Assembly: GCA_019119365.1 (NCBI GenBank) | Contig: DWXD01000019.1 | Location: 1-39,732, forward strand | Length of the DNA stretch: 39,732 nucleotides | Source of the DNA: Candidatus Gemmiger stercoripullorum | GTDB taxonomy: Bacteria > Bacillota > Clostridia > Oscillospirales > Ruminococcaceae | Direction: 5' to 3' | Made by a program: the position numbers and the translations under genes | Notes under the pieces: model-generated | Told to the model about the DNA's origin: nothing | Database searches by the model: none | The model's input: only the letters and a program-made list of their open reading frames with translations | In this document: piece by piece, positions 770 through 17,141 of the stretch | Layout: each line of letters opens with the position of its first letter | Numbering within the stretch: the first letter of the stretch is position 1

Positions 770-1993
770 TTACCCCCTCCCATTTTTCATATCATCGCGC
801 TTTTTGTGCGGGCGTTCCGGGCCGGGGTGCGGCGCGCGCAGGCTGTAGGCCAGCAGGTAGCCGTCGTGGGCCGGGCGGCGGTAAAATTCGGCGCGCACGC
901 GTTCCATCGGGCTGGCGCCCTCGCAGGCGGGCGCTTCCAGCAGCAGCACAAAGCGGTTTTCGCTGTAGCGCGCGGCCACGTCGCTGCTGCGCAGCGTGCA
1001 CAGCAGAACGTCCTCCATGACCTGCATGACCGCCGCGGTGCGCCCGGCGGCCGGGCGCGGCACCGGCGGCAGCAGGCTGGCCGTGACCAGCAGCAGCGGG
1101 GTGTCGCTGCGGGCGGCGGCGCGCATGCGCACGCGGCTGATGGCGCAGAAGGTATCGTAGCTGCACAGGTACGCCCCGACGCCGTCATCCTCCAGAATGC
1201 GCTGTTCGATGCGGTCCAGGTCGTTCTGCATGCCGGTCTGCGCCGCGCACAGGCGGCTGTATGCGGCGGCCAGCGCGCCGGGGGTGTGCGCCCCGACGTG
1301 CAGGCAGCCGGCCTGTTCGCCTGTGCGTGCGAGTTCTTCGGCCTCCTGCATGCGGCCCTGCGCCTGCAGCGCCAGGGCCCCTTCCAGGTACAGGCGTTCG
1401 TCGGCGGCGTCCTGCTGCAGGCCGCGGCGGCACAGCGCAGCCAGGGCGGCCGGGTCGCCCCGGTGCTTGCAGCGCTCGATCTGGTGGTACAGCGCCGCCT
1501 TATACTGCGCATACAGTTCGATCTGACGGCGCTCGACCCAGGTCTCCCCGGCTGAATCCGGCAGCAGGCGGCCGCGGTACAGCATCACGATGGCCTGCTC
1601 CATGCCGTCGCGCGCCACGCCCTCCGGCGCGGCGGCGGCCTGCGCGGCCAGGCGTTCGAGTTCATACACATCGACAAAGCAGGCCAGCGCCGGGTTCCAG
1701 CGGTAGCAGCCGCGGGTGGTCTCGAGCCAGCTGTCCAGCGCGCCGCCTTCCAGCGCCGCCAGGCGGCGCAGCCGGTGCATCACGGCGCGCAGCGAGGCTT
1801 CGGCGTTGGAGGCGTTTCCCCAGAACTGCGCGGCCAGTTCGGCGTGGGGCACCGCGCGGGCGCGGTTGAGCAGCAGATACTGCAATACCTGCTGCAGTTT
1901 GCGGGACTGTGCCATGCCCTGCAAGGCAGGGCGGCCGTCGGTGCAGACGGAAAAGCCGCCCAGCATGCGGATCTCGATTTTTGGCTGCGGCAT
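770..1993 (-). CDS. SARP/BTAD-type transcriptional regulator with degenerate GGDEF domain
   Basis: A 407-aa cytoplasmic regulator. Residues 1-95 form a winged-helix OmpR/SARP-like DNA-binding domain (IEIRMLGGFSV start, then AELAAQFWGNASNAEASLRA). Residues 100-245 are a helical bacterial transcriptional activation (BTAD, TPR-like) domain (ACFVDVYELERLA...DERLYLEGALALQAQGRM). Residues about 270-385 resemble a GGDEF domain (SSDVAARYSENRFVLLLEAP), but the signature is SENRF near 343-347, so diguanylate cyclase activity is very unlikely; a sensory or binding role is inferred. The start ATG at 1993 has an AGGAGG site 6 nt upstream. It lies at the 3' end of the pilus operon with its own AT-rich upstream region, so it may govern pilus genes. 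The stop falls in a G-rich run (see findings). Confidence 0.85.
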   Translation of the reverse strand: MPQPKIEIRMLGGFSVCTDGRPALQGMAQSRKLQQVLQYLLLNRARAVPHAELAAQFWGNASNAEASLRAVMHRLRRLAALEGGALDSWLETTRGCYRWNPALACFVDVYELERLAAQAAAAPEGVARDGMEQAIVMLYRGRLLPDSAGETWVERRQIELYAQYKAALYHQIERCKHRGDPAALAALCRRGLQQDAADERLYLEGALALQAQGRMQEAEELARTGEQAGCLHVGAHTPGALAAAYSRLCAAQTGMQNDLDRIEQRILEDDGVGAYLCSYDTFCAISRVRMRAAARSDTPLLLVTASLLPPVPRPAAGRTAAVMQVMEDVLLCTLRSSDVAARYSENRFVLLLEAPACEGASPMERVRAEFYRRPAHDGYLLAYSLRAPHPGPERPHKKRDDMKNGRG

Positions 1994-2061: not shown

Positions 2062-2814
2062 TTATTCGGCGGTATCGCGCCCCGGCGCGGCGTCCTGTGC
2101 GGTGAGCAGCCGCGGGCGGTTGGGGGTATCCAGCACGGTGCGGCGGGTGTACAGCGGCTGTTCGCTGCCCGCCCGGCTGACAGAGACTTCCACCGCCAGC
2201 GCGGTCACGCAGGTTTCGCCCGCCGCGCCGGGGGCCGTGCTCTGCACCGCAAAGCGCAGCGCCACCGCATCGCCCATATAAAACCCACCGGCAAAAGCGT
2301 CGGCGTAGCCATCGGCCACATAGCCACCGGGGCCGTGGTAAACATAGCTGTCCCCCTGCCCCGGTTCGGAGACCGCCGCATAATAGCGCCGGTGCAGCGT
2401 ACCGGCCGCCTGTTCGGGCACGCTGCCGCCCTGCGGCAGCGCTGTCTGCGGCACAGCGCCCGCGTCCAACAGCAGGAAATAGCCGCCCGGGATGCCGAAC
2501 TCCAGCGCGGCGCCGCTGCGCCCTTCCGGGTCAGCCGCCGGGGCGAACACCTGCCCGGCTTCCCCGGCTGTCTGCGCGGCGTCGGCCAGGCGCAGCGTAC
2601 CCCGGGCCTGCAAAAGATCGCCGCGCAGCTCTTCCACAATGGTATCGGCGATCATCTGCGCGCCGGAAACGGCCTGGATGCGCGCATACTGCACGGCAAA
2701 CGGGTGCACGAGCGCCGCCGCCAGCGCGCACAGCGCCCCGAGCAGCGCCAGGCAGACGAGCAGCTCGACCAGCGTTGCGCCGCCGCGGCGCTGCAAAACG
2801 GGCGGGCGGTTCAC
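2062..2814 (-). CDS. Minor prepilin, PilW/GspJ-like
   Basis: About 250 aa, with the N-terminal type IV prepilin signal QRRGG|ATLVELLVCLALLGALCALA: basic leader, Gly before the cut, Glu at +5, then a hydrophobic helix. A long soluble region of beta-rich appearance follows (GGYFLLLDAG...GDSYVYHGPGGYVADGY), as in PilW/GspJ minor pilins. I place the start at GTG 2814, whose GTGA overlaps the TGA of the upstream PilV-like gene. The frame stays open further upstream, but that part is a shadow of the neighbour. It is expected to be processed by the PilD at 14132-14932 and to join a pilus tip complex. It is the last gene of the pilus operon. Confidence 0.8.
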   Translation of the reverse strand: MNRPPVLQRRGGATLVELLVCLALLGALCALAAALVHPFAVQYARIQAVSGAQMIADTIVEELRGDLLQARGTLRLADAAQTAGEAGQVFAPAADPEGRSGAALEFGIPGGYFLLLDAGAVPQTALPQGGSVPEQAAGTLHRRYYAAVSEPGQGDSYVYHGPGGYVADGYADAFAGGFYMGDAVALRFAVQSTAPGAAGETCVTALAVEVSVSRAGSEQPLYTRRTVLDTPNRPRLLTAQDAAPGRDTAE

Positions 2815-3179
2815 TGTGCGGGGACGGCGAAGCGGTGGAAGGTATAGCGCCTGTCCCCCTCCGCTTCTTCCGGGGCAGTGACCGTCTCGCGCCGGACATC
2901 CTCGACCGTGAAAGCCGCCGCCCCGTCCGGGCCCCGGAACACATACGCGGCGCTGCCGTCCGGCACAGCGGGCGGCGCGCCGGACGGCGGGCGCAGCGCC
3001 GTGATGCAGGCGTCGGCCGCGGCGCGGGTATCCGCCGCGCGCTGCTGCAGCGCTGCGGCCGTATGCAGCGACGCGGCAAACCCAGAAATGAACAACAGCA
3101 GCAGCGCGAACGCCGTCAGAACTTCGACAAGCGTCTCCCCGCGGCGGCTGCGCAGGGCGGCGCGGCAGCGGTGCACCAT
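2811..3179 (-). CDS. Minor prepilin, PilV/GspI-like
   Basis: A 122-aa protein starting MVHRCRAALRSRRG|ETLVEVLTAFALLLLF: basic leader, cleavage Gly, Glu at +5 and a hydrophobic alpha-1 helix, followed by a short globular domain. Size and motif fit PilV/GspI minor pilins. The start ATG 3179 lies 2 nt after the stop of the PilX-like gene, and the stop overlaps the GTG of the PilW-like gene, so the three are probably translationally coupled. GspI- and GspJ-like proteins next to a GspK-like one match the composition of pseudopilus tip complexes. Family assignment comes from motif, size and order only. Confidence 0.8.
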   Translation of the reverse strand: MVHRCRAALRSRRGETLVEVLTAFALLLLFISGFAASLHTAAALQQRAADTRAAADACITALRPPSGAPPAVPDGSAAYVFRGPDGAAAFTVEDVRRETVTAPEEAEGDRRYTFHRFAVPAQ

Positions 3180-3181
3180 GG

Positions 3182-3940
3182 TCAGCTTCCCCCTTTTTCA
3201 AGATTCACATACCGGCTGTCCGCCGCGGCGGCGGACGGTTCGCCATTGGCTTCGACCTGCCCGCGGTCCGGCAGGGTCTGCGCGGTCAGGGCAGGCGGGC
3301 CCAGCATCTGCGGGTCCGAAAGCGGATAGAATTCCAGCGTGCCCGCACGGCGGCCATACGCCTGCCCGGCGACCGTATACGCCACCCGGCACACCACGCG
3401 GCGCTCATACCGCTGCGTGTAGGAAAACGCCGCGCCGCTGACGGCGGCGTTCACCGTGACGGTGATCTCATAATCGGCCAGCTCGGCCGCCGTATGCTCG
3501 AAAGCGTCCATCTGCGCGGCCAGCTCCCCGGCGGAGAGCCCCGCGCCCAGGTCCCAGGCGGCCTGCGCCCCCCGCGCCAGGCGGCGGCGCTGCAGCGTCA
3601 CGCTGAGCTGGCCGTAAGGGTCGGCGGCGTCGCCGGGTTCTGCGGTGAAGGTATAGGCGGTATCGTCCGCATAAGGGCTTTGCAGGAAGCGGGTCGTGAG
3701 GAATTCGGCGATGCCGGTGGGCGTACCGGCGCAGAGGTCGGCGTCCAGCCGCTCCGAAAATGTGCGCGCGAGCTGGTACGCCTGTTCCTGCGGCAGCAGG
3801 CGGGCCGCCGAAGCCCCCAGCTGCCCGGCCGCCGCCAGCAGCACAGCCGCCAGCGCCAGCAGCGCCGCCCCCAGGCACAGCACCAGGGGCAGGGCCGCCC
3901 CGCGGCGGCTGCAAAGGCAGGCCCGCAGACGGCGCGTCAT
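3182..3940 (-). CDS. PilX/GspK-like minor pilin
   Basis: A 252-aa protein with the N-terminus [26 protein letters not shown]. It has the basic leader and Gly of a prepilin site and a long hydrophobic helix, but no Glu at position +5, as is usual in GspK and PilX. The rest is soluble, with a GspK-like helical start ([18 protein letters not shown]) and later beta-rich segments. ATG 3940 overlaps the TGA of the giant prepilin gene, implying coupling. In type II and type IV systems this protein caps the tip with GspI/GspJ partners, here the next two genes. The exact subfamily is uncertain. Confidence 0.7.
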
Positions 3941-6900
3941 GCGGCGGCCTCCCCGCCCTGGTCCGGCGGCGCGGGCGTGGGCGACGGCGCGGGCGTGGGC
4001 GACGGCGCAGGCGGCGCAGCGATATCCGCCGGGGTGGGCGCGGGCGTGGCCGTGGGCAGCGGGGAGGGTGCAGCTGTGGGCGTGGCGGCCGGGGACGGGG
4101 AAGGTTCCGCCGCCGGGGTCTGTGCCGGTCCGGGTGTGGGTGCGGGTGTCGGGGTTGGCTCGGCTGTGGGCGTTGGGGACGCCGCAGCCGTCGGCTGCGG
4201 CGTGGCCGCCCCGCGCGTGGGTTCCGGCGTGGCTGTGGGCAGCGGAGAAGGTTCAGGCGCGGGCGTCGGGGATGGTTCGGGCGTCGGCTGCGGCGTCACC
4301 GGTTCGGGCGGTGTTTCGGGCTGCTGCGCATAAAAGCGGCGCAGATCCCGGTCCCGGATATCGCCCGGCTGCACGCCGGGCTGGCCGTTGGTCTCACCGA
4401 AGCGGAACAGGATCACGCCCGCCGTGCGGCCCGCCGCATCCACGATGCGCCCGTCCGGGGCGACCGCGTGCGTTGTGGGGCCGATGGCCCCGGCATCCGT
4501 ACCTTCGGTGAGCAGCGCTGCAAAGTACGGTTCCGCCGCGGCGGCAGTATCCAGCGTTCCCAGAAACAGCGGCCGGCCGCCCTCCCCTGCCGCCGGGGCC
4601 GCGGCCCGGCTGACGGCGCTTTCCGCCGTCGCGGCCGCGCCGGGGGCTTCGCCCAGCGGCGGCAGCACTGCGCCCGGGGTCAGGTAGAAATTCTCCTGCG
4701 TGTGCACGGCGTCTTCCGCCCACGGCCCGCAGGCGATGGGACTGCCGCCGGGCGCATCATACACGGCAAAGCAGCCGCTGATCCATAATTCGCCCCCGGC
4801 CGCGCACGGGCCGCAAACCCCGGCGGCGGCCGGGGCGTCCAGCACCGGGCTGTAGCTGCGGCAGCGCTCGATATACAGCGCAGGCGCGCCCGGCGCATCC
4901 AGGCGGCCGCAGATACCGCAGGCCAGCGCCCCGGCGCGCAGCGCGGGCGCGGCGTTGACACAGCCGCGGAGCGTGACCGTGGCACGGCTGGCCGCCGCGG
5001 CCTGCACGCGGCCAACGATGCCCGCGGCGTCGCCGTTTTCATGCGCGGCGGTGACAGCGCCGTAGTTCCGGCAGGAAAGAAGCCGGAGCGTCCCTTGCGC
5101 CGGGGCTTGCGCCGCGCCTGCCACGCCGCCCGCGGCCCCGGCCGCGCCGGTCACGGCGCCATAGTTGAAGCAGCGGGTCACGCCGCCGCCCTGCCAGACG
5201 CCGATGACGCCGCCCAGGCTGCCGCCCTGCGGGGCGGCGGCGGGGGCAAGGTTGACGCAGTTTTCACACTGCGCGCCGTCCGCCTGGCTGCCCGCGATGC
5301 CGCCCGCCGTGCCCGCCGCACCGGCGCGCACAGCCGCGCAGTTGAGCAGGCCGCGCAGCGTGCCGCCCGCGTTCTCCCCCACGCAGCCGCCCGCCGGGGC
5401 GCTGCCGTCCGCGCTGCAAACAAGCCACGCCCCGCTGGCGCAGCCGGTCACCGTGCCGGTGGCGGCGTTGCGGCCGGTCAGCCCGCCCACGCAGCCGCTG
5501 CCGTACAGCGCCGCCGTCAGTTCGTTGGCCGCGGCCGCCGTGGCGGGGGTCGCCACCGACGCCAGCGGGTCGCTGCCGCAGGCAAGGGCAAGTTCCTGCC
5601 GCGCCAGGGCTTCGGTCATCGCGTCTGCGCCCGCCTCGCCGTCCTGCAGCCAGGCGGCGAACTGCGGCAGTTTTGCAAGGGGCGCCGCGCTGCCGCAGCC
5701 CTCGATGCGCCCTGCGTTGAAACCGCACAGGCCGCCGACGGCCCCGGCGTTCGCCTGCACCGTGCAGGGCTGTTCGCCGCCGATCACGCATTCCCGCACA
5801 AGGCCCTCCGCCGTGTTGCAGCCGACCAGACCGCCCACGCCCCCGGCAGCCTGGCCGCTTTCGGCGCAGCCCGCCAGCTGCAGGGTCAGGTTGGATACCC
5901 GGCAGCCCTGCACGGTCCCCGCATTGCGCCCCACCACACCGCCGGCGGCATCGCCGGGGCCGGACGCGCCCGCGGCGTCCTGCGCCGCAAAAGCTTCCAC
6001 CGTGCCGCAGACCGTGCCGGTATTGACACCGGCCAACCCGCCCAGGCTGCGGATGCGGCCAAGCGCCCCGCCGCCCGAAACGGACAGCGAGACGGCTGCT
6101 TCCTCCAGCGTTCCGGTATTCTCCCCCACCGCGCCGCCGACAGCGGTCAGGCTGGCGGCGGTCAGGCCGGTCAGGTCCCACGGGTCTTGCGCCGTGACCG
6201 TGACGCCGCGCACCGCGCCCGCATTGCAGCCCGCAACGCCGCCCGCCACACCGGCCGTACCGGTCAAGCGGAGGGTGTCCAGCGAAAGGGCCGCGTTTTC
6301 GACCGTGCCGGTGTTGCAGGCCGCAAAACCGCCCGCGCAGCCGCTTTGCGCGCACACCGTAAGCGGCGCGCCGCTGCCGGGCGTGCCGCCGCGGATCGTT
6401 CCTTCATTGCGGCCCGCCAGGCCGCCCGCAGACCCGGCCAGTGCGGTCACGCTGCCGGTGGCGGCGCAGTTTTCAAGCACGGCGTCGGCTGCGGTGCAGC
6501 CCACCGCGCCGCCGGTCAGGTCCTGCCCGCAGACGGCGCCCGCGCTGCGGCTGTCTGCGACTGTACCGCCGCACACCGCCCCGGCCAGCCCGCCGACAAA
6601 CCGGCCGCCGTATACCGCGGCCTGCGCGCCGTTCTCGCAGTTTGCCATGCCGCCGCACAAAAAGCCGACCAGGCCGCCGGTGAAATCGCCCTGCGGCGGG
6701 TTTCCCTGCGCCGGGGCGGCCGTATTGCGGCAGCCCTGCAGCGCGACCCCGGCCGAATACCCGGCCACGCCGCCGAAAAACTGCCCCGCCAGCGGCGAGA
6801 CCGCGGCGTCGTAGCCCGCCAGCGCCTGCACCGGGCCGCTGTTGTGCGCCCCGGCCAGCACCGCGCCTTCGCCTTCCAGGCTGCCAACCACGCCGCCCGC

Positions 6901-8877
6901 ACAGGCGTTGCCATAAACGGCGGCCGCATTGGACAGCCGGAGCCCGACCGCCTGCGCGCCGCCCGGCAGGCGGACGAACCCGGCCACGCCGCCGACCCCG
7001 GCAGGCTGCCAAACCTGCTGCGCCGCCCGGCAGCGGGCCGCCGGGTCCGCCTGCCCGCCCGAAGACGCGGCCGAGGCCCCCAGCAGCAGGCCGGTGACTT
7101 CGCCTTCGCATTCCAGCGCATACAGCCCGGCGTCTTGCCCCGCCAGGCTGACGCCGACCAAACCGCCGATCCCCGCCGCGGGCGTGTCCGCCCCGGCCCG
7201 CTGCGGCAGCGCCAGGGCGGCCCGCACCTGCACGCTGCCCGCGGCATTGCGCACGCGGCCGGTGTTTTCGCCGCACAGCGCGCCCACCGCGCGCAAACCG
7301 GGCAGCGCCAGCGAGGCCGCGCCCTGCCGCCAGTTTACCTGCACGTCGGCGCGGCGCAGCGTCAAGTTCTGGATGGCGCCCGCGTTGCAGCCGAACAGCC
7401 CGATACATTCCGCCTGCCCGCCCGAAGCAAAGACCGAAGCGCCGCGCAGCTGCAAACCGGACAGCACATGGCCCCCGCCGTTGAGCGACCAGCCGCGGGG
7501 CAGTTCCGGCACCGTGGGGAACGCCACGGCGTGCGCGGGCGCCGGGCTGTCGGCCCAGGGGCGGGTTTCGCCCGCCTGCGGTGCCTGGTAGACAAGCGCC
7601 GCGCCGCCGGTCCAGTCCAGCTCTGCGGCGGTCAGCAGCAGGTCGGCCTGCGCGTAGCGCCCGGTCAGCCAGCGCAGGTTGTACAGGTGGCGGAAGCTGG
7701 CGATGCGCCCGTACAGCACACCGCCGCGGATTTCAGTGTCTTCGGCCAGCAGCGTGTTGGCCCGGCCCGTGAGCACGGGGCGGCTGGCCGTGTAGCAGGC
7801 GGCCGCCTGCTGCGCGGGGCGGGCGGTCAGGCGCACAAAGATATCCTGCGGCGTTTCCAGCCCGGGCAGGCGGGTCACGCTGTACAGGCTCGTGCGCTGC
7901 AGCGCGTCGCTCGCCGCACACCGCCCCAGCAGCTCGGCGCTGGCCATGGCGTCCAGCGTGAGCGTAAAGACGCCGCCCGCACAGCGCAGCGGGAACCACA
8001 TCTCGGTTCCGGTCTGTTCCCGCACGCCGTTTGCATCATAGGCGAAGACCGTCAGGCGCGCGAGCGCAGCGCCGGATGAGTATTGCACTTCGGCGTCCGT
8101 TTCCAGCGCGGCCAGCGGCACAAGGATATCGCACAGCGGCGCGCCGTCCGCGCGCAGCAGCGTGGCCGTATATTCCACATCGCGCGGGGCGGCGCTACCG
8201 CGCCAGCTCAGCGCCAGCGTCTCGCCGTTGACAAGCGCCGCGCCCTGGATGCGCAGTTCTTCCCGCTGCGGCGGCACTCTGCTCTGCACAAGACCCGGCG
8301 CATAATACCCGACCAGGCTGTGGGCGCGGCGGTGGGCCGCGCTGCGGTCGGTGATGTCGGTGGCGTCTTGCTGCGCGCCGAAGCGCAGCCGCGCGGCTTC
8401 GCTGTCATAAAAGACCGAAAAGACTTTGCCGGTCTGCATGTCGATCTCCAGCGCCAGCGAGGCGTTCAGCAAAGCGGCGTCATAGATATAAGGCTCCAGC
8501 AGCTGCGCGGCCAACCGGCCCGCCGCGGTCCCGGGGTCTGCCTTGTCATAAAAAAGCACCCGCACACGGTCCGGGTAGGCGGCCGCCTCCGCAGCCGCCC
8601 CCGCGCCGTCCGGGGTGCTGTAAACGCCGGTCACGGCCACATCGGCCGCCCCGGCCAGCCAGGCGTCCAGCCCGTCGGCCGCCGCCAGGCGGGCCAGCGC
8701 CAGCTGCGCAGCCTGGCAGACCGTGCGCGCGTTGGCTTCGTTGCGGGCAAAACGGCTGCGCCGCGCATACGCCGCCAGCCCGGCCCCCGCCAGGGTGGCC
8801 AGGATCAGCATGATCGCCAGCGCGACCATCAGCTCGATCAGCGTAAAGCCCCTGCAGGCCTGCAACTTTCCGCGCAA
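3937..8877 (-). CDS. Giant type IV prepilin-like surface protein with GLUG repeats
   Basis: About 1646 aa, some ten times an ordinary pilin. The N-terminus [33 protein letters not shown] is a textbook class III prepilin signal (cleavage Gly, Phe +1, Glu +5). Residues ~30-480 are a mixed globular region. Residues ~480-1360 carry roughly 25 GLUG-type repeats (GGLVG-N-GTV-x-C pattern), rich in Gly, Ala and Cys. The C-terminus (~1523-1640) is a Pro/Thr/Ser/Ala/Glu low-complexity stalk ([14 protein letters not shown]) with no LPxTG motif. I prefer the TTG start at 8877: AAGAAGAAGGGG lies 6 nt upstream and the leader has normal length. A GTG at 8940 is the alternative. An internal promoter (8946-8974) lies just upstream. 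A pilus-displayed adhesin is inferred. Confidence 0.85.
3960..4320. repeat. Pro-rich stalk coding repeat
   Basis: Degenerate short repeats encode Pro-Thr/Ser/Ala-Pro units of the giant prepilin C-terminus. Near the 3' end an 18-bp unit (GGCGCGGGCGTGGGCGAC as read on the plus strand) occurs twice in exact tandem at 968-985 and 986-1003 past base 3000 (3968-4003). Such tracts change length easily, so this region may vary between strains. Confidence 0.7.
4750..7430. repeat. GLUG-motif repeat region
   Basis: This part of the giant prepilin gene encodes about 25 imperfect units of 25-50 residues. They are built around GG-(L/V/A)-(V/A)-G-x-N-x-G-x-(V/I) followed by a short variable insert, often with Cys. 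Examples are [25 protein letters not shown] and [14 protein letters not shown]. The units are similar at the protein level but diverged at the DNA level. GLUG repeats are known from large surface proteins, where they probably form a beta-solenoid-like rod. Confidence 0.8.
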
Positions 8878-8945
8878 CGGCAGCCCCTTCTTCTTTGTTT
8901 TTGTCCCTGCGCCCCCGGCTTTTCCGGTTTTGGGGCACACCCCAA

Positions 8946-8974
8946 ATTATACGTTCTCCCGCGCGGTTTTTCAA
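8946..8974 (-). promoter_or_regulatory. Internal promoter for the giant prepilin gene
   Basis: On the minus strand TTGAAA (complement of 8969-8974), a 17-bp spacer and TATAAT (complement of 8946-8951) lie in the 90-bp gap after pilB. Transcription would begin near 8939, which favours the TTG start at 8877 over GTG 8940. It would let the prepilin genes be expressed independently of the assembly genes. Confidence 0.65.
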
Positions 8975-9030: not shown

Positions 9031-10716
9031 TTATTCTTCAAACAGTATTTTCAGCGCTTCCTCCGGCGTGGTCACACCTTCGCGCACGAGGTCAAGCGCT
9101 TCTTCGCGCAGCGTGCGCATGCCCTGCGCCTGGCGCGCATGGGCGGCCATCTGCTCGGCCGGGGCGCGCTCGGATATCAGGCGGCGCAGCGTTTTGTCCA
9201 CCGCGACAAGCTCATGGATGGCCACGCGGCCGCGGTAGCCGGTCCCGTGGCAGTGCGGGCAGCCGCGGCCGCGGCGCACCGCGCGCACCTGCGGGCCGAG
9301 CAAAGCGGCTTCCTCCGGCGTGAGGGGTTCTTCCTGCCCGCAGTGGGGGCAGACTTTGCGCAGCAGGCGCTGGGCCACAAGCCCGGCCAGCGCGTTGGCC
9401 GCCATATACGGTTCGACGCCCATATCGGCCAGGCGCGCGACCGAGCCGAGCGCGTCGTTTGTGTGCAGCGTGGAAAACACCATATGCCCGGTGATGGCCG
9501 CCCGCACCGAGATGGCGGCGGTCTCGGCGTCCCGCGTTTCGCCGACCATGATGATGTCGGGGTCCTGGCGCAGCAGCGCGCGCAGGCCGCTTTCAAACGT
9601 CAGCCCGGCCACGGGGTTGATCTGGGTCTGGCTGATGCGGTCGATGTTGCGCTCGACCGGGTCTTCGATCGTGACGATGTTGACGCTGCGGCGGCGCAGC
9701 GCTTCCAGGATCAGGTACAGCGTCGTCGTTTTGCCGGACCCCGTCGGCCCGGTCAGATAGATGATGCCGTTCGGCCGCTGCAGCAGCGGGGCAAACCGCG
9801 CATAGACCGCGTCGCGCATGCCGAAATGGCCGGCGTGGTCGATGGCCGCGCTGTCTGCCAGCAGGCGGAGCACGGCCTTTTCCCCGAACACGGTCGGCAT
9901 GACAGAGACGCGCAGGTTCACACCGCCGCCCTCCTCGCTGTGCGCGCGGAAATGCCCGTCCTGCGGCAGGCGGTGCTCGGCAATGTCCAGCCCCGCCAGG
10001 ATCTTGATGCGGGCGATCAGCGGCTGATGCAGCGTGCGCGGCAGCTGCATATACTCGATGAGTGCGCCGTCGATGCGCATGCGCACGGCGGTGCGGTCCT
10101 CAAACGGTTCGAGGTGGATGTCCGAAGCCCCGGCCGTGATCGCGCGCTGCAGCAGATTGTTCAGCAGCCGGACGGCCGGCGCGCCGTCCTCCGCGGCGCG
10201 CACATCGACCGCGGCGGGGCCGGGCGGCGGGACAGCCCCGCCACCAGGCTGCGCATCGGCTGTGCGCGCAGCGCGCCGGGCCCCCAGATCGGCATAGTAG
10301 TATTGTACGGCTTTCAAAAGCGGCTCCGGTTCGGCCAGCTGGATATCCAGCTCGAGCCCGGTCAGCTGGCGCAGGTCCTCGAACGCGTAATAGTTGAGCG
10401 GGTCGTCGGCCGCAAGGCTCAGCACGCCGCCGCGGCAGCGCAGGGGCAGCACATGGTAACGGACGGCCAGGGCCTGCGGCACCAGTTCCAACGCTTCGCG
10501 CTCGGCTGTCTGCTGGGAAAGGTCGGCAAGCGGCAGGTCCAGCCGCCGGGCCAGCGCCTGCAAAACCTGGCGCTGGGTCGCGAACCCCAGCGCGGTCAGC
10601 GCCTGGCCGATGCGCAGGCCGCCGTGTTCTTTCTGGTACGCCAGCGCCTGCTCCAGCTGGCGGCGGGTGATGGTCCCGGCTTCTGCCAGGATCTCGCCCA
10701 GGCGGATGTCGTTCAT
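9031..10716 (-). CDS. pilB: Type IV pilus assembly ATPase PilB (GspE family)
   Basis: A 561-aa hexameric ATPase that powers pilin polymerisation from the cytoplasmic face. Residues 1-150 form the N-terminal GspE/MshEN-type domain (RLGEILAEAGTITRRQLEQAL). Walker A GPTGSGKTTT lies at ~323-332, the Asp box is TIEDPVE, Walker B is DPDIIMVGETRD at ~384-395, and the His box is STLHTND. A zinc-type tetracysteine (CPHC...CPHC at ~452-490) is followed by GTGYRGRVAIHELV, diagnostic of GspE/PilB rather than PilT. ATG 10716 overlaps the TGA of the upstream PilO-like gene. No PilT retraction ATPase is seen in the window. Length and motifs are complete, so the gene should be functional. Confidence 0.96.
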   Translation of the reverse strand: MNDIRLGEILAEAGTITRRQLEQALAYQKEHGGLRIGQALTALGFATQRQVLQALARRLDLPLADLSQQTAEREALELVPQALAVRYHVLPLRCRGGVLSLAADDPLNYYAFEDLRQLTGLELDIQLAEPEPLLKAVQYYYADLGARRAARTADAQPGGGAVPPPGPAAVDVRAAEDGAPAVRLLNNLLQRAITAGASDIHLEPFEDRTAVRMRIDGALIEYMQLPRTLHQPLIARIKILAGLDIAEHRLPQDGHFRAHSEEGGGVNLRVSVMPTVFGEKAVLRLLADSAAIDHAGHFGMRDAVYARFAPLLQRPNGIIYLTGPTGSGKTTTLYLILEALRRRSVNIVTIEDPVERNIDRISQTQINPVAGLTFESGLRALLRQDPDIIMVGETRDAETAAISVRAAITGHMVFSTLHTNDALGSVARLADMGVEPYMAANALAGLVAQRLLRKVCPHCGQEEPLTPEEAALLGPQVRAVRRGRGCPHCHGTGYRGRVAIHELVAVDKTLRRLISERAPAEQMAAHARQAQGMRTLREEALDLVREGVTTPEEALKILFEE

Positions 10717-11354
10717 TTCGCAAGGCCCTCCGTGTCATACATGTAGGCGGTCAGCTCGTAGCGGAACTCCACCTGGGTTTCGGCGCCGCCCGCGGCGGTG
10801 AGCCAGGCCGATTCGCTGACCGTAAAGCTGCGCAGCTGCAGCGCCGGGTAGTTGGCGGCAAGGTCGTCGAGCAGCGCGGCAAACGCCGCATATGTCCCCT
10901 GCGCCGTGCCCTGCAGCGCCACGGCCTGCAGGCCGCCGGTCCCGGCAGGCGGCAGGGTCTCGTCCCCGCAGGCGGACAGCGCGTAGCCCTGCAGGTCCGG
11001 GGCAGTCGCCGCGCCGATGGTCAAGGCGAGCGGCTGCAGGCCGCTGTCCAGCGCCAGGCCGGTCACAAGGGTGTCCAGTTCCTCGCTGGAAAGCAGGGGG
11101 TATGCGTCCCGCGCCGCCTCCCGCACGGCCGCGGCGGCCGCTTTTCGCTCGCTTTCGTGGGCGGCGGCTTCACCGGCCGCGGCCTGCATCTGCCCGCGGC
11201 GGTCCGCCGCCTGCCGCCGTTCGCGCGCCGCCGCGGCGTGGGCCTGCAGCGCGGGCGACAGCGCAAAGACGCCGTACAGCAGCACAGCGGCCGCGAGCCC
11301 CGCGCCGTACAGCAGCTTTTTATCCCGTTCGGTCACAGCGGTTTCCAGTCTCAT
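10713..11354 (-). CDS. PilO/GspM-like pilus alignment protein
   Basis: A 213-aa bitopic inner-membrane protein. A short cytoplasmic tail (MRLETAVTERDKKLLYG) precedes one membrane helix (AGLAAAVLLYGVFALSPAL). Then comes an Ala/Glu/Arg-rich coiled coil (~35-90), and finally a ferredoxin-fold-like domain ending LRSFTVSESAW...VEFRYELTAYMYD. This is the PilO/GspM plan. Position after pilM and a PilN-like gene, and before pilB, supports it. I start at ATG 11354, which overlaps the TGA of the PilN-like gene; the frame extends upstream without relevance. It should pair with the PilN-like protein and dock onto PilM. Confidence 0.78.
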   Translation of the reverse strand: MRLETAVTERDKKLLYGAGLAAAVLLYGVFALSPALQAHAAAARERRQAADRRGQMQAAAGEAAAHESERKAAAAAVREAARDAYPLLSSEELDTLVTGLALDSGLQPLALTIGAATAPDLQGYALSACGDETLPPAGTGGLQAVALQGTAQGTYAAFAALLDDLAANYPALQLRSFTVSESAWLTAAGGAETQVEFRYELTAYMYDTEGLAK

Positions 11355-11947
11355 GGCGCGGCCTCCTTCGCCCCGTTTTCCGGGGCGGCGAGCACACAGT
11401 CCAGCTGCAGCGTGTAGCCGTCCGCCCCGGTCTCGTAGCCGGCGTAGGCGACCTGTGCAAACAGGCCGCTGCCTTCCAGGCGGCGCACATAGGCCGGGAT
11501 GTCGACGACCTGCGGCAGCACGGCGCTGAAGGTCAGCGTGCCGCTGGCGGCGTCGTAGCCATGCAGCTGCACATGCACACCGGCTTGCGCATCTTCCAGC
11601 GCGGCCAACACCGTGCCGGTCGGGTCCGGGTAGCTGTCCAGCAGGGTCCAGAGCTGTTCGAGCTGCGCCTGATCCGCCTGCAGCGCGGCGGCGCGGGCGC
11701 GGTCGGCCTCGCTCTGCGCATACGCGGCGGCGTTTTCCGGCGTTTCGCACCAGGCGGTCAGGGCCGCCGTCTCCCGCCGCAGGCAGGCGGTGTGAAAGCC
11801 CAGACCACCCCAGAGCAGCAGCGCAGCCGCCGCGGTGACGGCGGCCGGGCCCGCGCGCCGCGCCAACCGCCGCCAGGCCGTGCGGCGGCCGGCGTTTTCA
11901 GCCTCACGCCAGCGGCGGTAAAAATTGTTGCGCTTGGTTCGCATCAT
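11351..11947 (-). CDS. PilN/GspL-C-like pilus alignment protein
   Basis: A 198-aa bitopic protein. A basic cytoplasmic N-terminus (MMRTKRNNFYRRWREAENAGRR) precedes one membrane helix (AAVTAAAALLLWGGLGFHTA), a coiled-coil segment rich in Ala, Glu and Gln (~70-110), and a compact C-terminal domain (GVHVQLHGYDAASGTLTFSAVLPQVVDIPAYVRRLE) of PilN-like ferredoxin fold. The start is one of two adjacent ATGs at 11945-11947 and 11942-11944, 5-8 nt after AAAGGGGGG. In PilMNO systems the N-terminal peptide of PilN binds PilM, and pilM is the gene immediately upstream. Sequence similarity alone is weak, so the assignment leans on topology and order. Confidence 0.75.
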   Translation of the reverse strand: MMRTKRNNFYRRWREAENAGRRTAWRRLARRAGPAAVTAAAALLLWGGLGFHTACLRRETAALTAWCETPENAAAYAQSEADRARAAALQADQAQLEQLWTLLDSYPDPTGTVLAALEDAQAGVHVQLHGYDAASGTLTFSAVLPQVVDIPAYVRRLEGSGLFAQVAYAGYETGADGYTLQLDCVLAAPENGAKEAAP

Positions 11948-12000: not shown

Positions 12001-12885
12001 TCAGGGCATCAGGCTCCCGGCCGTATACAGGCAGTCCGCCAGCGCCCAGCCAGCAGGCAGGCGCACATGCGGGCTGGGCGGGAACAGCGCGCACCGCAGC
12101 TGCAGCGCCGCCGCCCCGGCCGCGCAAACGGCGAGGTCCCCGGCGGCCGCCCCGCCGAAATAGAGGTCGGTCAGCGCGGGCGCGTTTGCCCCGGTCTTTT
12201 GGAACTGCGCCATGCCGGATACCTTCTGCAATATCTCGGCGGCGCTTTCCGCCGTGCCGCGCGGGTGGAGCAAACGGCCGCGCGTGGCGTATTTGTATTG
12301 TCCCTTTTCAAACAGCGAAGCGCTGAATGTTTCGCCTTCAAACACAAGCAAAATGAAGGTACGCCGGCTGTGCTCGGGCAGCGCCTGCACCAGCCGGATC
12401 AGCCCGGCCTGCGCCAGGTCGATCGTGCACAGGCGCAGCCCCAGCGTATGGGCCAGCGCGATGTAGGGGTCCAGGACGCTCTTTTCCACGCGCGTTGCCA
12501 GCACCGTGTCGGTGCGCCGCGCGGCGTCGCGGTCCAGCAGCATATAATCGTCCAGCGGGTCGGCCGCCGCGCTGCCGGCGCTCAGTTCATGGCTGACGAC
12601 GGCGCGCAGCTGGGCCGGGGGCAGGTGTGGCAGCCTTAAAAGGCGGCTGACAAACTGCCCGCCGCCCAAAACCAGCACCGCCTGCCGCCGCGGCAGGCGC
12701 TCGCGCCGCAAAAACGCCGCCAGCGCTTCGCCCAGGCGGGCTTCGTCGGCAATCAGCCCGTTGATCAGGCAGCCCTCGGGCAATTCGGCCCCACACAGCC
12801 GCCGCACACGGACCCGGCCGCCGCGGCAGACGCCCACGGCGGCCTGCACGGTGCGGCTGCCCAGGTATAGGATCATCCTTGCCAT
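12001..12885 (-). CDS. pilM: PilM-like actin-fold pilus protein
   Basis: A 294-aa cytoplasmic protein with the actin/FtsA-like fold of PilM. The phosphate-1 region ILYLGSRTVQAAVG is at the N-terminus, followed by a typical PilM segment ARLGEALAAFLRRERLPRRQAVLVLGGGQFVSRLLRLPHLPPAQLRAVVSHEL. The family links the PilN tail to the assembly ATPase. The N-terminal loop reads LGSRTV where actin-like ATPases usually have D-x-G-S/T, so nucleotide binding may be altered. The gene starts 17 nt after the pilC stop with GGGGAGG upstream of ATG 12885. It is shorter than Gram-negative PilM (~350 aa), as seen in Gram-positive versions. Confidence 0.8.
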   Translation of the reverse strand: MARMILYLGSRTVQAAVGVCRGGRVRVRRLCGAELPEGCLINGLIADEARLGEALAAFLRRERLPRRQAVLVLGGGQFVSRLLRLPHLPPAQLRAVVSHELSAGSAAADPLDDYMLLDRDAARRTDTVLATRVEKSVLDPYIALAHTLGLRLCTIDLAQAGLIRLVQALPEHSRRTFILLVFEGETFSASLFEKGQYKYATRGRLLHPRGTAESAAEILQKVSGMAQFQKTGANAPALTDLYFGGAAAGDLAVCAAGAAALQLRCALFPPSPHVRLPAGWALADCLYTAGSLMP

Positions 12886-12902: not shown

Positions 12903-14093
12903 TTACACGGTGATCGTGCCGTATGCGCTGTACAGCGGCAGAATCACGGCGGTCACGACCAGCGCCACCACCGCGCCCATGACCACGATCATCAGCGGTT
13001 CCAGCAAACCCAGCAGCTGTTTGGCGGCCTGGTCGGCCTCATAGTCCAGCGTGTCCGAGATGCCGTTCATCATCGCGTCCAGGCGGCCGGTTTCTTCCCC
13101 GACCTGCAGCGCGGCGGCGAGCTTGCTCTCAAACCCGTCCACGCCCTGCAGGGCCGCCGAAAGCGTCCCGCCGCTGCGCACGGCCGCCAAAACCTGCGGG
13201 AACTGGCCCGCGATCCAGGCGTTGCGGACCGTATCGCACGCCGCCTGCAGCGAATAGAGCACCGGCACGCCGCAGGCGTACAGCCCGGCCAGCGTGCGGG
13301 CAAAGCGGGCGGTGCAGATCTTGCGGTACAGTCCCCCGGCAAAGGGGACCCGCAGGCGCAGGCGGTCCCAGCGGCGGCGGAGCCCCGGCGCGCGCAGGGC
13401 CAGGCGCGCCGCCAGCGCCAGCAGCGCCGCCGCCAAAACCAGCCAGTACCAACCGGCGCGCGCGGCGGCGCACAGAGCGAACAGCAGGCGCGTCGGCCAG
13501 GGCAGCGATTCCAGCCCGGCGAACAGTTCGGCAAACTGCGGCAGGACAAAACCGACCAGCACGCCGGTCACGGCCACGACCAAAACGGCCAGGACCGCCG
13601 GGTAGAGCAGGCTGCCCTGCACCTGCCGGGCGGTCCGGTGTTCTTTTTCGTAATAGGCGGCCATCCGCAGGCAGACTTCATGCAGGCGGCCGTTGCCCTC
13701 GGCGCTGCGCACCGCGGCGGCCAGCAGCGGCGGGAAGGCGGGCGAATTGTTTTCCATGGCTGCCGAAAGCGGCGTACCCTCCCGCAAATCTTCGCTTAAA
13801 CGGCGGTAAAGCGCGCGCTGCGCGGCAGGCAGGCCGCTTTCCTGCGCCAGGATGTCCAGCGCCCGCAGCAGCGGCATGCCGGAAGCGATCAGCATGCCCA
13901 GCCCGCGGCAGAAGCCGGACAGGGCATCCGGCCCGAGTGCGCGGCCAGCCCCGGCGCGCCCGGCACGCTGGCCGGTCAAAAACAGACCGGCGGCGCGCAG
14001 CTGGGTATAAAGGGCCTGCGGGTCCGCCGCACGGGCCACGCCGCGCACCTTGCGCCCGGCTGCGTCCCGCGCGGTATAGCGGTAAGTGACCAT
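12903..14093 (-). CDS. pilC: Type IV pilus platform protein PilC (GspF family)
   Basis: A 396-aa polytopic membrane protein, the platform on which PilB acts. It starts MVTYRYTARDAAGRKVRGVA, the conserved GspF/PilC opening, and has the two homologous helical GspF domains (FCRGLGMLIASGMPLLRALDIL at ~70-90 and ICTARFARTLAGLYACGVPVLYSLQ at ~270-290). The C-terminus has the hallmark VGEETGRLDAMMNGISDTLDYE and the final membrane helix MIVVMGAVVALVVTAVILPLYSAY. Three hydrophobic segments are visible. ATG 14093 has GGAGG 12 nt upstream. The gene follows pilD in the same transcript. Family and length are normal. Confidence 0.95.
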   Translation of the reverse strand: MVTYRYTARDAAGRKVRGVARAADPQALYTQLRAAGLFLTGQRAGRAGAGRALGPDALSGFCRGLGMLIASGMPLLRALDILAQESGLPAAQRALYRRLSEDLREGTPLSAAMENNSPAFPPLLAAAVRSAEGNGRLHEVCLRMAAYYEKEHRTARQVQGSLLYPAVLAVLVVAVTGVLVGFVLPQFAELFAGLESLPWPTRLLFALCAAARAGWYWLVLAAALLALAARLALRAPGLRRRWDRLRLRVPFAGGLYRKICTARFARTLAGLYACGVPVLYSLQAACDTVRNAWIAGQFPQVLAAVRSGGTLSAALQGVDGFESKLAAALQVGEETGRLDAMMNGISDTLDYEADQAAKQLLGLLEPLMIVVMGAVVALVVTAVILPLYSAYGTITV

Positions 14094-14131: not shown

Positions 14132-14932
14132 TTACAGCAGCGCGAAGTACCAGGCCGCGGCGGCGTCCCCGGCAAACAGCGCCGCCGCGATGCCCGCGCA
14201 CAAAAACGGGCCGAAGGCGATGTGGTCGCGCCGCCCGGCCCGGCCGCGGGCCAACAGATACGCGGCGTACGCGCCGCCGCTGAGCACCGCCAGGAAAGCG
14301 GCGACAAAGGCCTGGGACCAGCCCAGCAGCAGCCCGGCCGCGGCCATCAGCTTGATGTCCCCGCCGCCAAAGCCGCCCGGCACCGCCAGGCAGAGCAAAA
14401 GCATCGGCACGCTGACGCACAGCGCACCGGCGATGTGCCGCGCCGCCAGCGCCGCCCAGCCGCCGTGCAGCACCCCCTGCGCCAGCACAAAGACAAGGGC
14501 AAACGCCCCCAGCGCGGCGTTGAGTTCGTCCGGGATCTCCTGCGTGGCGGCGTCATGGCAGGCGATGGCGTACAGAACGGCGCAGGCAAAAAGCGCCGTC
14601 AGCGCCGGAAACGAGAGCCCCAGCAGCGGACCGGTGCCAAAGCGCGCGCCGCACAAAAGCGCCGCCGCCCCGCCCAGGAGCTCTTCCAGCAGGTGGCGCA
14701 GCGGTATCCGTGCGCCGCAGTAGCGGCACCGCCCGCGCAGAAACAGCCAGCTGAACACCGGGACCAGATCACCGGCCCCCAGCGTGTGCCCGCAGGCCGC
14801 GCAGGCGCTGCGGCCGCGCACAACCGGCGCGCCGCGCGGCAGCCGCCAGGCCAGCACGCCGCCGAAAGAGAACACCGCCGCCCCGGCCAAAAACGGGAAA
14901 AGGCACAGGACGGCCCGCACGGCCCACAGCAT
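14132..14932 (-). CDS. pilD: Prepilin peptidase PilD (A24 aspartic protease)
   Basis: A 266-aa polytopic membrane enzyme that cuts the prepilin leader after Gly and usually N-methylates residue +1. The N-terminal cytoplasmic domain has both CxxC pairs of bifunctional enzymes (C44, C47, C69, C72) in the usual ACGHTL...RCRYCGARIPLRHLLEELLGG context. Catalytic Asp residues are in CHDAATQEIPDELN and GGGDIKLMAAAG. I start at ATG 14932, five nt after GGGGGTG; a TTG at 14953 is possible but adds an odd peptide. It is first in the pilus operon, about 40 nt from the predicted transcription start. Its substrates are very probably the four prepilin-like proteins at 2062-8877. Confidence 0.95.
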   Translation of the reverse strand: MLWAVRAVLCLFPFLAGAAVFSFGGVLAWRLPRGAPVVRGRSACAACGHTLGAGDLVPVFSWLFLRGRCRYCGARIPLRHLLEELLGGAAALLCGARFGTGPLLGLSFPALTALFACAVLYAIACHDAATQEIPDELNAALGAFALVFVLAQGVLHGGWAALAARHIAGALCVSVPMLLLCLAVPGGFGGGDIKLMAAAGLLLGWSQAFVAAFLAVLSGGAYAAYLLARGRAGRRDHIAFGPFLCAGIAAALFAGDAAAAWYFALL

Positions 14933-14979
14933 CCGACACCCCCCGGCGCACAAACATATCTTCCGTATCTTTGTAAGAA

Positions 14980-15008
14980 ATTATAGAAGAGATGCCCGCC
15001 GTTTGCAA
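14980..15008 (-). promoter_or_regulatory. Main promoter of the pilus operon
   Basis: On the minus strand TTGCAA (complement of 15003-15008), exactly 17 bp, and TATAAT (complement of 14980-14985) sit in the AT-rich gap upstream of pilD. The untranslated leader would be about 40 nt. The run of genes from pilD to the PilW-like gene has no strong terminator between members. Confidence 0.8.
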
Positions 15009-15113: not shown

Positions 15114-17141
15114 TCAAAAACCAATTTCGGCCGCACTGTCCCCCGTATACAGGTCGCGGGCAGGCAGCGCGCGGATCAACTCGGCTTCTTCCACCTGCAG
15201 CCAGGTAAAGTTCTCATCGGCGCTCCAGATCGTAGCGACGCCCCGCCCGTCCTCTACGCGCACGGGCAGATACGCTTGCCCGCTGGCTGGCAGATAGCAG
15301 CCGACGCCCGGCATGTCGCCGAACAGCGGCGCCGCATACCCAACCAGGCTGCGCCCCAGCGAGAGCAGCGCGCCGCCAGCCCCGGTAAAACCGCTTTCGT
15401 AGGAGATCAGCAGGTCCGCCGTAAAATCTTCTGTGCCGGGGGCTTCGACCGTGATCTCCCAACGTTGCCGCCCCAAAGGCCGGGCGCTTACTTCCGCTTC
15501 AATGTCCAAGCTCCGGTCGCCGCCGGCCTGCCAGAGCCAGCTGTACTCGGTGGCATAGCAGCGTTCGTACCCCGCCCACAGATGGCGGTAAACATCCCAG
15601 TTCTGGATGGTCAGCCAGTTCTCCACATCCAAACGCGGCGTCTGCGCCCAGCGCCACGCCCCCTGCACAAAACAGTCCAGATACTTCTGCCGCCGGTCCG
15701 CCCCCAAGGCGTGAATGATATAGTCACAGCCGCCTGGCTGGAAAGTCCCTTCCACCGCTTCCAGACCGGTCGCATACAACGAAAACACCGGTTCTCCCCC
15801 TGTCAGCGCAGGTGTTTCCACCAGAGCCTTATGGTAGGTGGTGGCGCCGCCTAAGGTAGGCAGGTATTCGCCCGTTTGGGGCGGCGGAGCCAGCAGGTCC
15901 CGCCCGGCAAGGACAGCGAGCCCCACAGCCAGAACCGCCAGGGTTCCCCCCTGCACACGCTCCTGCCAGCAGGCAAAAGACACCGTCAGATGCAGCAGCG
16001 CTTTGAGTATCAGCGCACCCGCCCCCAGCCAGAGAAAGCCCTCCAACGCCTCTTTGAAATTATAGCCGCTGCCGCTGAGCACATAAGCGCCGGAAGCCGT
16101 CAGGATGCAAAAGCCCAAAAATGCCAGCAGGAACAGCCGGTCGGACAGCCGCTTTTGAACCAGCCGCACGGCAGAAAAGACAAACAGCCCCGCATAGGGC
16201 AGCGCAAACGCCATAAGCCGGACATTTGTCAGGACATATAATACCAGCGCCTGGCCGCTCGTACCGTTAAAATAGAAATACTGCCACACGCCGGTATCGC
16301 CCAGGCTGGAAAGCCAGGCCCCGGGGTGGAAACCAGTAACCAGGCAGGCGGCCAGAAGGCAGCCCGCGCCCAACCCCGCCGCATACAAAGCCAGCCGCCC
16401 CGCAAAGGCACGCGCGCCCCGCCAATGCGCCGTTTGTACCAGCAGGAAAAACACTGTGACCGAAAAAGCGGTCGCAAGGCCAAAATCGCTGCTCCACAAA
16501 AGCCCCGTCCCGGCCAGGCCGCCCACCAGCAGGCAAGGCTTGGGGTCCGCCAGGCGCCGCTGCAGCGCCTGGCCTTCCGCTTGAGCGCCGCGCGCCGCCA
16601 GCCACAGCAAAGCCGCTCCCGCCAGCAAAAAGGGCAGAAACAGGCGTGCGATCCGCATCGAATTGCCCGGGCTGTACAATCCCTGGAACAGCTGGGTCAG
16701 GTAGACGCCGGCCGGACCGCCCACTGTGGCCAGCAGCCCGGAGGACACAAATTTGGTCAGTGCCGCCGATACCACCATGGCCGCGGACAAACGCCGGACA
16801 ACGAGATAGACCCATATCAGCACCGTCGCACTGAACAGCAGGTTGGAGGTAAAATTGGTGGCAAACAGACTGCCTGCAAACGTGTTGTTGAGCGCCACAA
16901 GCGGCAGGTTGATCCAAACCGGCGCCATGCCGATGTAGTTGACGAAATCGAGATGGGGCGTCTGCCCGGCCAGTATGCGGCGGAAGACGTTGTAGCTTTG
17001 AAAGTCGCCGTTTATGGAAACGTAATCACACACGGAAACGCGCCCCAGCGCCATCGACAGGCTGACCGCCGCCACGGCCAGCCCCCAGGCCAGCCACAGC
17101 AACACCTGTTTGCAGCAGATTTGCTTTGACGCAACGCACAT
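15114..17141 (-). CDS. Polytopic membrane protein, GT-C glycosyltransferase-like, unassigned
   Basis: A 675-aa protein with about ten or eleven hydrophobic helices in residues 1-410, then a soluble domain of about 260 residues without membrane segments. The first loop reads SINGDFQSYNVFRRILAGQTPHLDFVNYIGMAPVWINLP, which resembles the first extracytoplasmic loop of GT-C fold glycosyltransferases (acidic residue, then G-x-x-P-x-x-DF and a small-residue/Pro motif). A role in lipid-linked sugar transfer or envelope polymer modification is inference only. The C-terminal domain (ENWLTIQNWDVYRHLWAGYERC) is unknown to me. ATG 17141 has GGAGGGGG about 10 nt upstream. It has its own promoter and reads toward the pilus operon, ending 106 bp from the pil -35. 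Confidence 0.7.
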   Translation of the reverse strand: MCVASKQICCKQVLLWLAWGLAVAAVSLSMALGRVSVCDYVSINGDFQSYNVFRRILAGQTPHLDFVNYIGMAPVWINLPLVALNNTFAGSLFATNFTSNLLFSATVLIWVYLVVRRLSAAMVVSAALTKFVSSGLLATVGGPAGVYLTQLFQGLYSPGNSMRIARLFLPFLLAGAALLWLAARGAQAEGQALQRRLADPKPCLLVGGLAGTGLLWSSDFGLATAFSVTVFFLLVQTAHWRGARAFAGRLALYAAGLGAGCLLAACLVTGFHPGAWLSSLGDTGVWQYFYFNGTSGQALVLYVLTNVRLMAFALPYAGLFVFSAVRLVQKRLSDRLFLLAFLGFCILTASGAYVLSGSGYNFKEALEGFLWLGAGALILKALLHLTVSFACWQERVQGGTLAVLAVGLAVLAGRDLLAPPPQTGEYLPTLGGATTYHKALVETPALTGGEPVFSLYATGLEAVEGTFQPGGCDYIIHALGADRRQKYLDCFVQGAWRWAQTPRLDVENWLTIQNWDVYRHLWAGYERCYATEYSWLWQAGGDRSLDIEAEVSARPLGRQRWEITVEAPGTEDFTADLLISYESGFTGAGGALLSLGRSLVGYAAPLFGDMPGVGCYLPASGQAYLPVRVEDGRGVATIWSADENFTWLQVEEAELIRALPARDLYTGDSAAEIGF

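Follow-up and report, generated by a model that had tools for sequence, protein, structure and literature searches.

A giant prepilin gene in a type IV pilus locus

We analyzed a window of 39,732 nucleotides from Candidatus Gemmiger stercoripullorum (contig DWXD01000019.1 of assembly GCA_019119365.1) and describe here a giant prepilin that is encoded within a type IV pilus locus. On the minus strand (3937..8877), the gene runs without any internal stop from a TTG at 8877 to a TGA at 3937 and encodes 1646 residues; homologues align with it in the same frame. The initial annotation of this DNA gave the extent of the gene correctly, but the coding strand is the minus strand: on the plus strand of 3937..8877, the given frame is broken by two stops. 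Its description of a 1646-residue chain about ten times longer than a normal pilin agrees with this uninterrupted frame. The TTG is preceded 6 nt upstream by AAGGGG, and the TGA stop shares the sequence ATGA with the ATG of the next gene (K-like, see below). The guanine-plus-cytosine (GC) content at third positions is 0.855, against 0.856 for pilB and 0.855 for pilC in the neighborhood. One numbering used below (P0001) counts from a GTG at 8940, upstream of the TTG, and the open frame of the window then has 1669 residues.

The protein begins with a class III leader peptide (8848..8877), identified from its sequence and from profile matches. It presents a glycine at position −1, Glu5, a hydrophobic alpha1N segment and an N_methyl match above the cut-off (E = 6.6e-8; 32.2 bits against 21.2), and TIGR02532 also scored well above its threshold (31.5 bits against 16.3), so that the perfect prepilin signal reported initially is real. 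The leader is followed by a pilin module (8275..8847; mature residues 1-191), made of an alpha1 helix (3-56) and a small head, which is kept in the short homologues. In the AlphaFold2 model, which is a predicted structure, the helix spans residues 3-56 and head elements extend up to residue 182. The GspH profile matched the N-terminal helix alone.

After the pilin module comes a linker region (7528..8265) with an Ig/Fn3-like sandwich at mature residues 195-367, and then a long repeat rod (4771..7503), defined by motif counts and by structure prediction as a GLUG-like beta-helix. Within residues 481-1390 (P0001 numbering), the motif GG[hydrophobic]xG occurs 20 times, whereas shuffled sequences contain 1.84 on average and 8 at most (none of 2000 shuffles reached 20). 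The more specific motif GGxxGxN occurs nine times in the rod (shuffle mean 0.07), and the loosest GLUG-like pattern has 32 starts there. The rod is rich in cysteine, as first described, with 42 of the 50 cysteines of the frame. It is followed by a region ending in ILFRFGETN... (4351..4770), which aligns partially with the homologue of G016 and whose model is mostly of low confidence, and by a Pro/Thr/Ser-rich tail (3940..4350). The Pro-rich character of this tail was also recognized initially: 47 of the last 137 residues are prolines.

Organization of the locus

The surrounding genes are all encoded on the minus strand, in the order PilD-like, PilC, PilM-like, PilN-like, PilO-like, PilB, giant prepilin, K-like, I-like, J-like and regulator. 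The PilD-like prepilin peptidase (14132..14953) was recognized by sequence reading and synteny rather than by a family scan, and the PilC/T2SSF platform protein (12903..14093) by profile matches and homologues. The PilM-like protein (12001..12885) scored 29.7 bits with TIGR01175, below the cut-off of 133; the PilN-like protein (11351..11947) was assigned from position and homologues only, and the PilO/GspM-like protein (10713..11351) from sub-threshold matches. The PilB-like extension ATPase (9031..10716) was identified by profile matches and carries an MshEN domain together with the cyclic di-GMP (c-di-GMP) motif NF053729 (52.2 bits against a cut-off of 38), so the pilus is probably controlled by c-di-GMP. 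Next to the giant gene lie a K-like minor pilin without Glu5 (3182..3940; G/AALPLVL), an I-like minor prepilin of 122 residues (2811..3179; G/ETLVEV) and a J-like minor prepilin (2062..2814; G/ATLVEL), names that rest on size, order and Glu5 rather than on family scores, as no Pfam minor-pilin family scored for these three proteins. Glu5 is missing from the K-like protein in all eight genomes compared and present in the I-like and J-like proteins in all eight. PMC10191384 describes a tip complex whose cap is a subunit lacking Glu5. The K-like protein also presents a sub-threshold PKD match over residues 122-174 (20.4 bits against 23.5).

The gene order differs among relatives: a PilT follows PilB in G005, G016, G037, G039 and G045, and in the window this place is taken by the minor-pilin cluster, an order shared by G040, which has a short pilin. 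In the genome of the window, PilT is encoded on a different contig (C15:101355-102368; 404 bits against a cut-off of 319.1), and retraction of the pilus is therefore possible. A search of 14.8 kb gave three sigma-70-like sites (shuffle mean 1.0). Two of them precede pilD (14980..15008, minus strand; TTGCAA-17-TATAAT) and the giant gene (8946..8974, minus strand; TTGAAA-17-TATAAT, 11/12), which makes it likely that the locus comprises two transcription units.

At one end of the locus, a regulator (770..1993) with a winged-helix-like N-terminus (25.6 bits against a cut-off of 26.2) and a weak GGDEF-like C-terminus (17.3 against 23.8) is syntenic in G005, G006, G016, G037, G039 and G045. Upstream of pilD, a large and apparently multi-pass membrane protein (15114-17141, minus strand) had no tblastn match in the compared locus stretches of the relatives.

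Distribution and evolution of giant prepilins

Within the genus, 13 of the 35 genomes present an N_methyl match at E 0.01, and eight of these 13 have at least one such match in an open frame of at least 1000 residues (1525-4016 residues; 1669 for the window). For a ninth genome, G039, the assembly covers the last 704 residues of a giant; this C-terminal end sits at the edge of a contig, immediately ahead of the K-like gene (L071:1-2112), and gave weak Fn3-like and cadherin-like matches only. The product encoded in this slot varies in length from 173 mature residues (G040) and 211 (G006; 54% identity over 202 residues) to 1636 in the window and about 3340-3590 in G005, G016, G037 and G045. In G036, the homologue has ~1500 residues and the machine genes are found on another contig. 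In two genomes, G010 and G046, the pilin modules of the giants are more distant from that of the window (L023:3698-15745 and L065:1897-11952, both on the minus strand; ~3970 and ~3310 residues). The machine genes of G010 are also only distantly related to those of the window, and these distances point to a second type of pilus with giants.

The rod of the window aligns piecewise with the larger rods, which are several hundred residues longer, and the register is ambiguous because of the repeats. A C-terminal stretch of ~500-800 residues common to G005, G016, G037, G045 and G039 had no match in the window protein, which ends instead in its 137-residue Pro-rich tail. Among G005, G016 and G037, sequence identity is 94-95% for PilB, 72-75% for the pilin module, 54-56% for the rod and 37-42% for the C-terminal part. 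The ratio of nonsynonymous to synonymous divergence (dN/dS) among the same genomes is 0.19-0.24 for the pilin module and 0.38-0.44 for the rod, although these ratios are rough because several comparisons have dS values close to 1 or higher. The rod appears to evolve fast and to vary in length from one relative to the next, to the point of being absent altogether, with the pilin module retained.

We then considered more distant relatives. The N-terminal profile matched in 74 of the 197 genomes of the family sample, many of them through the helix alone. Among the matches listed, all seven (window aside) that reach profile column 199 sit in frames of 1695-3164 residues; the loci of these seven and of G142 were read. 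In G208, G090, G193 and G142, which belong to other genera, small pilins are encoded near pilus-machine genes. In the order sample, 17 of the 295 genomes, from seven families, have a frame of at least 1000 residues that matches at E 1e-9, with 5261 residues in the longest. Besides the window, G090, G193, G023, G373, G405, G474, G322 and G263 were read, and the remainder of the 17 are open frames only. Three other families are represented by G405, G474 and G322, whose giants have 3118-3190 residues and 26-32 GGxxG motifs, align over 1001-1448 columns and adjoin K-, I-, J-, PilD-, PilC- and PilM-like matches. The longest giant prepilin encountered, in G373 (L189:1498-17265), has 5255 residues and 31 GGxxG motifs.

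The initial annotation had proposed that a pilin module and a long GLUG-like rod tied to the PilD/PilB machinery occur in one chain, and that a frameshift, an assembly join or the absence of this architecture from related genomes would speak against it. The architecture recurs within the genus, in other genera and in other families, with homologues in the same frame, which argues against a frameshift or an assembly join. With versions ranging from ~170 to more than 5,000 residues, the relatives suggest a putative fast-evolving binding arm near the pilus tip.

Interpretation of the giant prepilin

In the sequence, a leader of PilD type precedes a pilin module that a linker joins to the long GLUG-like rod, and the gene stands at the head of a K-I-J-like cluster. 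We consider it probable that this protein is a giant modular minor pilin that serves as an H-type tip arm. Placement at the tip gains indirect support because the giant gene heads the cluster of minor pilins; tip location, surface exposure and adhesion are all putative. The giant would be inserted by Sec with its N-terminus inside and its C-terminus outside, its leader would be cleaved by PilD, and it would take the H-type place in a priming complex with the K, I and J subunits; PilB and PilC would extend the pilus beneath this complex. Close to the pilus tip, the rod would then emerge from the wall as a stiff arm with the flexible Pro/Thr/Ser tail at its end. A beta-helix rises by 0.48 nm per coil, which would give the arm a length of ~14 nm at ~30 residues per coil. 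This arm would attach to a surface, with glycans or proteins of a host or neighbor as its most likely targets, and could be retracted by PilT. In the systems described in parts of PMC8179133, PMC9934059, PMC6916266 and PMC12075869, modules on minor pilins serve in binding or in customizing the pilus tip, and the rod may have such a role.

Several observations weigh against this interpretation. The identity of the giant is positional: it would be the H-position member of an H-K-I-J-like cluster by gene order only, no Pfam minor-pilin family having scored for the K-, I- and J-like proteins. We obtained no GspH/FimU fold match for the pilin module, the structural rows being filled by the linker domain; Foldseek alone returned weak matches for both models, and a faulty profile run with composition correction switched on returned none. 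PF07581 (GLUG) did not match the window protein, so the N_methyl plus PF07581 architecture proposed initially is not supported as stated; about 25 GLUG repeats is a reasonable figure if motifs are counted, these being in excess over shuffles. This family was weak in relatives (16.8 bits in G045 and 13.9 bits over seven stretches in G208, against a cut-off of 20.5) and exceeded the cut-off in the giant frames of G208, G071 and G106 in a genome profile search; the rod is best called GLUG-like, after its repeat motif and predicted beta-helix, rather than a member of PF07581. At E 1, the assembly of the window, which is 90% complete, presents three N_methyl matches, all inside the cluster, and none outside it, hence no major pilin is known: it lies in the missing part, escapes the profile, or does not exist in this system. 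Finally, the locus persists in G006 and G040, where the pilin has no rod, either because it was lost or because it was never present, which indicates that the rod is unnecessary for the persistence of the locus.

The restriction of N_methyl matches to the cluster would also fit a membrane-held surface rod, in which the pilin helix would only fix in the membrane a beta-helix adhesin, or a rod spanning the wall, that is processed by PilD without entering a pilus, the machine perhaps acting as a piston to drive it outward. This possibility is further favored by the promoter-like site of the giant gene and by the window protein itself, in which neither a sortase-like motif nor a transmembrane-like stretch beyond the pilin helix was found (G005, G322 and G474 have LPxTG- or NPxTN-like motifs internally, in no case together with a hydrophobic stretch). 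We nevertheless consider it unlikely. The pilin module is conserved independently of the rod, down to the short homologues in the slot, and the assembly of the window is incomplete. G005, G016, G037 and G045, which are 99% complete and carry giants, have further small prepilins, and small pilins also occur in the pilus loci of the four genomes from other genera. We hold it quite doubtful, in turn, that the machine mainly extrudes and retracts a giant beta-helix fiber, with H-K-I-J plus rod as the working appendage and a short or absent shaft; the rod would then be an interchangeable tip fiber across the order, with a role like that of a tail spike.

It is improbable that the beta-helix is an enzyme, that is, a polysaccharide-degrading or peptidase module carried on the pilus. 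The better matches are to a repeat region of IgA1 proteases, the HExxH motif is missing from 16 of the 17 proteins scanned, including the window giant and two short homologues (G373 has a single HEQEH), and Pfam scored no catalytic family in the window giant. A minor pilin capturing DNA, as proposed for ComZ of Thermus, also bears a beta-solenoid (PMC8179133, in part), yet the ComZ solenoid is inserted in the head and the rod studied here comes after head and linker and, with 51 Asp+Glu and 42 Arg+Lys (a single Lys among them), is not basic, which makes this role very improbable. Long chance frames do arise in GC-rich DNA, and one of 1012 residues lies on the opposite strand, but an out-of-frame or joined artefact is almost certainly not the explanation, as same-genus homologues align in frame over pilin, linker and rod and those of three other families do so over long stretches. 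A wrong reading frame for the giant was refuted by the in-frame homologues, the neighbor-like third-position GC and the motif excess over shuffles.

Comparison with known systems

If the tip-arm interpretation is true, a bacterial order, probably of Clostridia, would possess pilus-tip rods that reach several thousand residues and vary strongly among close relatives, and such rods would be a plausible basis of binding specificity in little-studied bacteria. The series of lengths found in the slot bears on the size of the tip module that can pass through a monoderm wall, and on the role of the module. We found no report of GLUG-bearing or kilo-residue pilins in the openly licensed papers searched. 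Part of PMC8179133 describes over 1,200 modular pilins with 264 architectures, the most extreme multi-domain one named there having 860 residues. PilFind looked for proteins of less than 350 residues, according to a section of PMC3244431; giants are invisible to finders that assume small pilins.

The closest parallels differ in several respects, as far as the cited parts of these papers go. PilB (vWA) and PilC (lectin) of Streptococcus sanguinis likewise join an N-terminal pilin to a grafted module in a monoderm, and these minor pilins were modelled at the tip (PMC8179133, PMC9934059). PilB has ~50 kDa and one globular module, whereas the giant has 1646 residues (relatives up to ~5255) with a rod, a linker domain, a Pro-rich tail and an H-K-I-J-like cluster. 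Thermus thermophilus ComZ is also a pilin bearing a beta-solenoid, but within the pilin head (PMC8179133). CofB and TcpB of type IVb pili are large minor pilins of the tip in which extra domains follow the head, and CofB, with its beta-repeat and beta-sandwich domains, is an adapter for a secreted partner; they are trimers, however, and their description there mentions no GLUG-like rod (PMC8179133). Variable minor-pilin modules also customize the tips of the Myxococcus Kil complexes, which are of Tad type with a trimeric KilLMN and again no GLUG-like rod in the description (PMC12075869). PilC/PilY1 of diderm type IVa pili is a large adhesive protein at the tip (PMC8179133, PMC9934059) but is a non-pilin based on a beta-propeller, and monoderms are without it according to PMC9934059. 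The beta-helix region of IgA1 proteases (7uvk, 7uvl, 6xja, 6xjb, 7jgj, 3n6z) differs from the rod of the window, which has no HExxH and is attached to a pilin.
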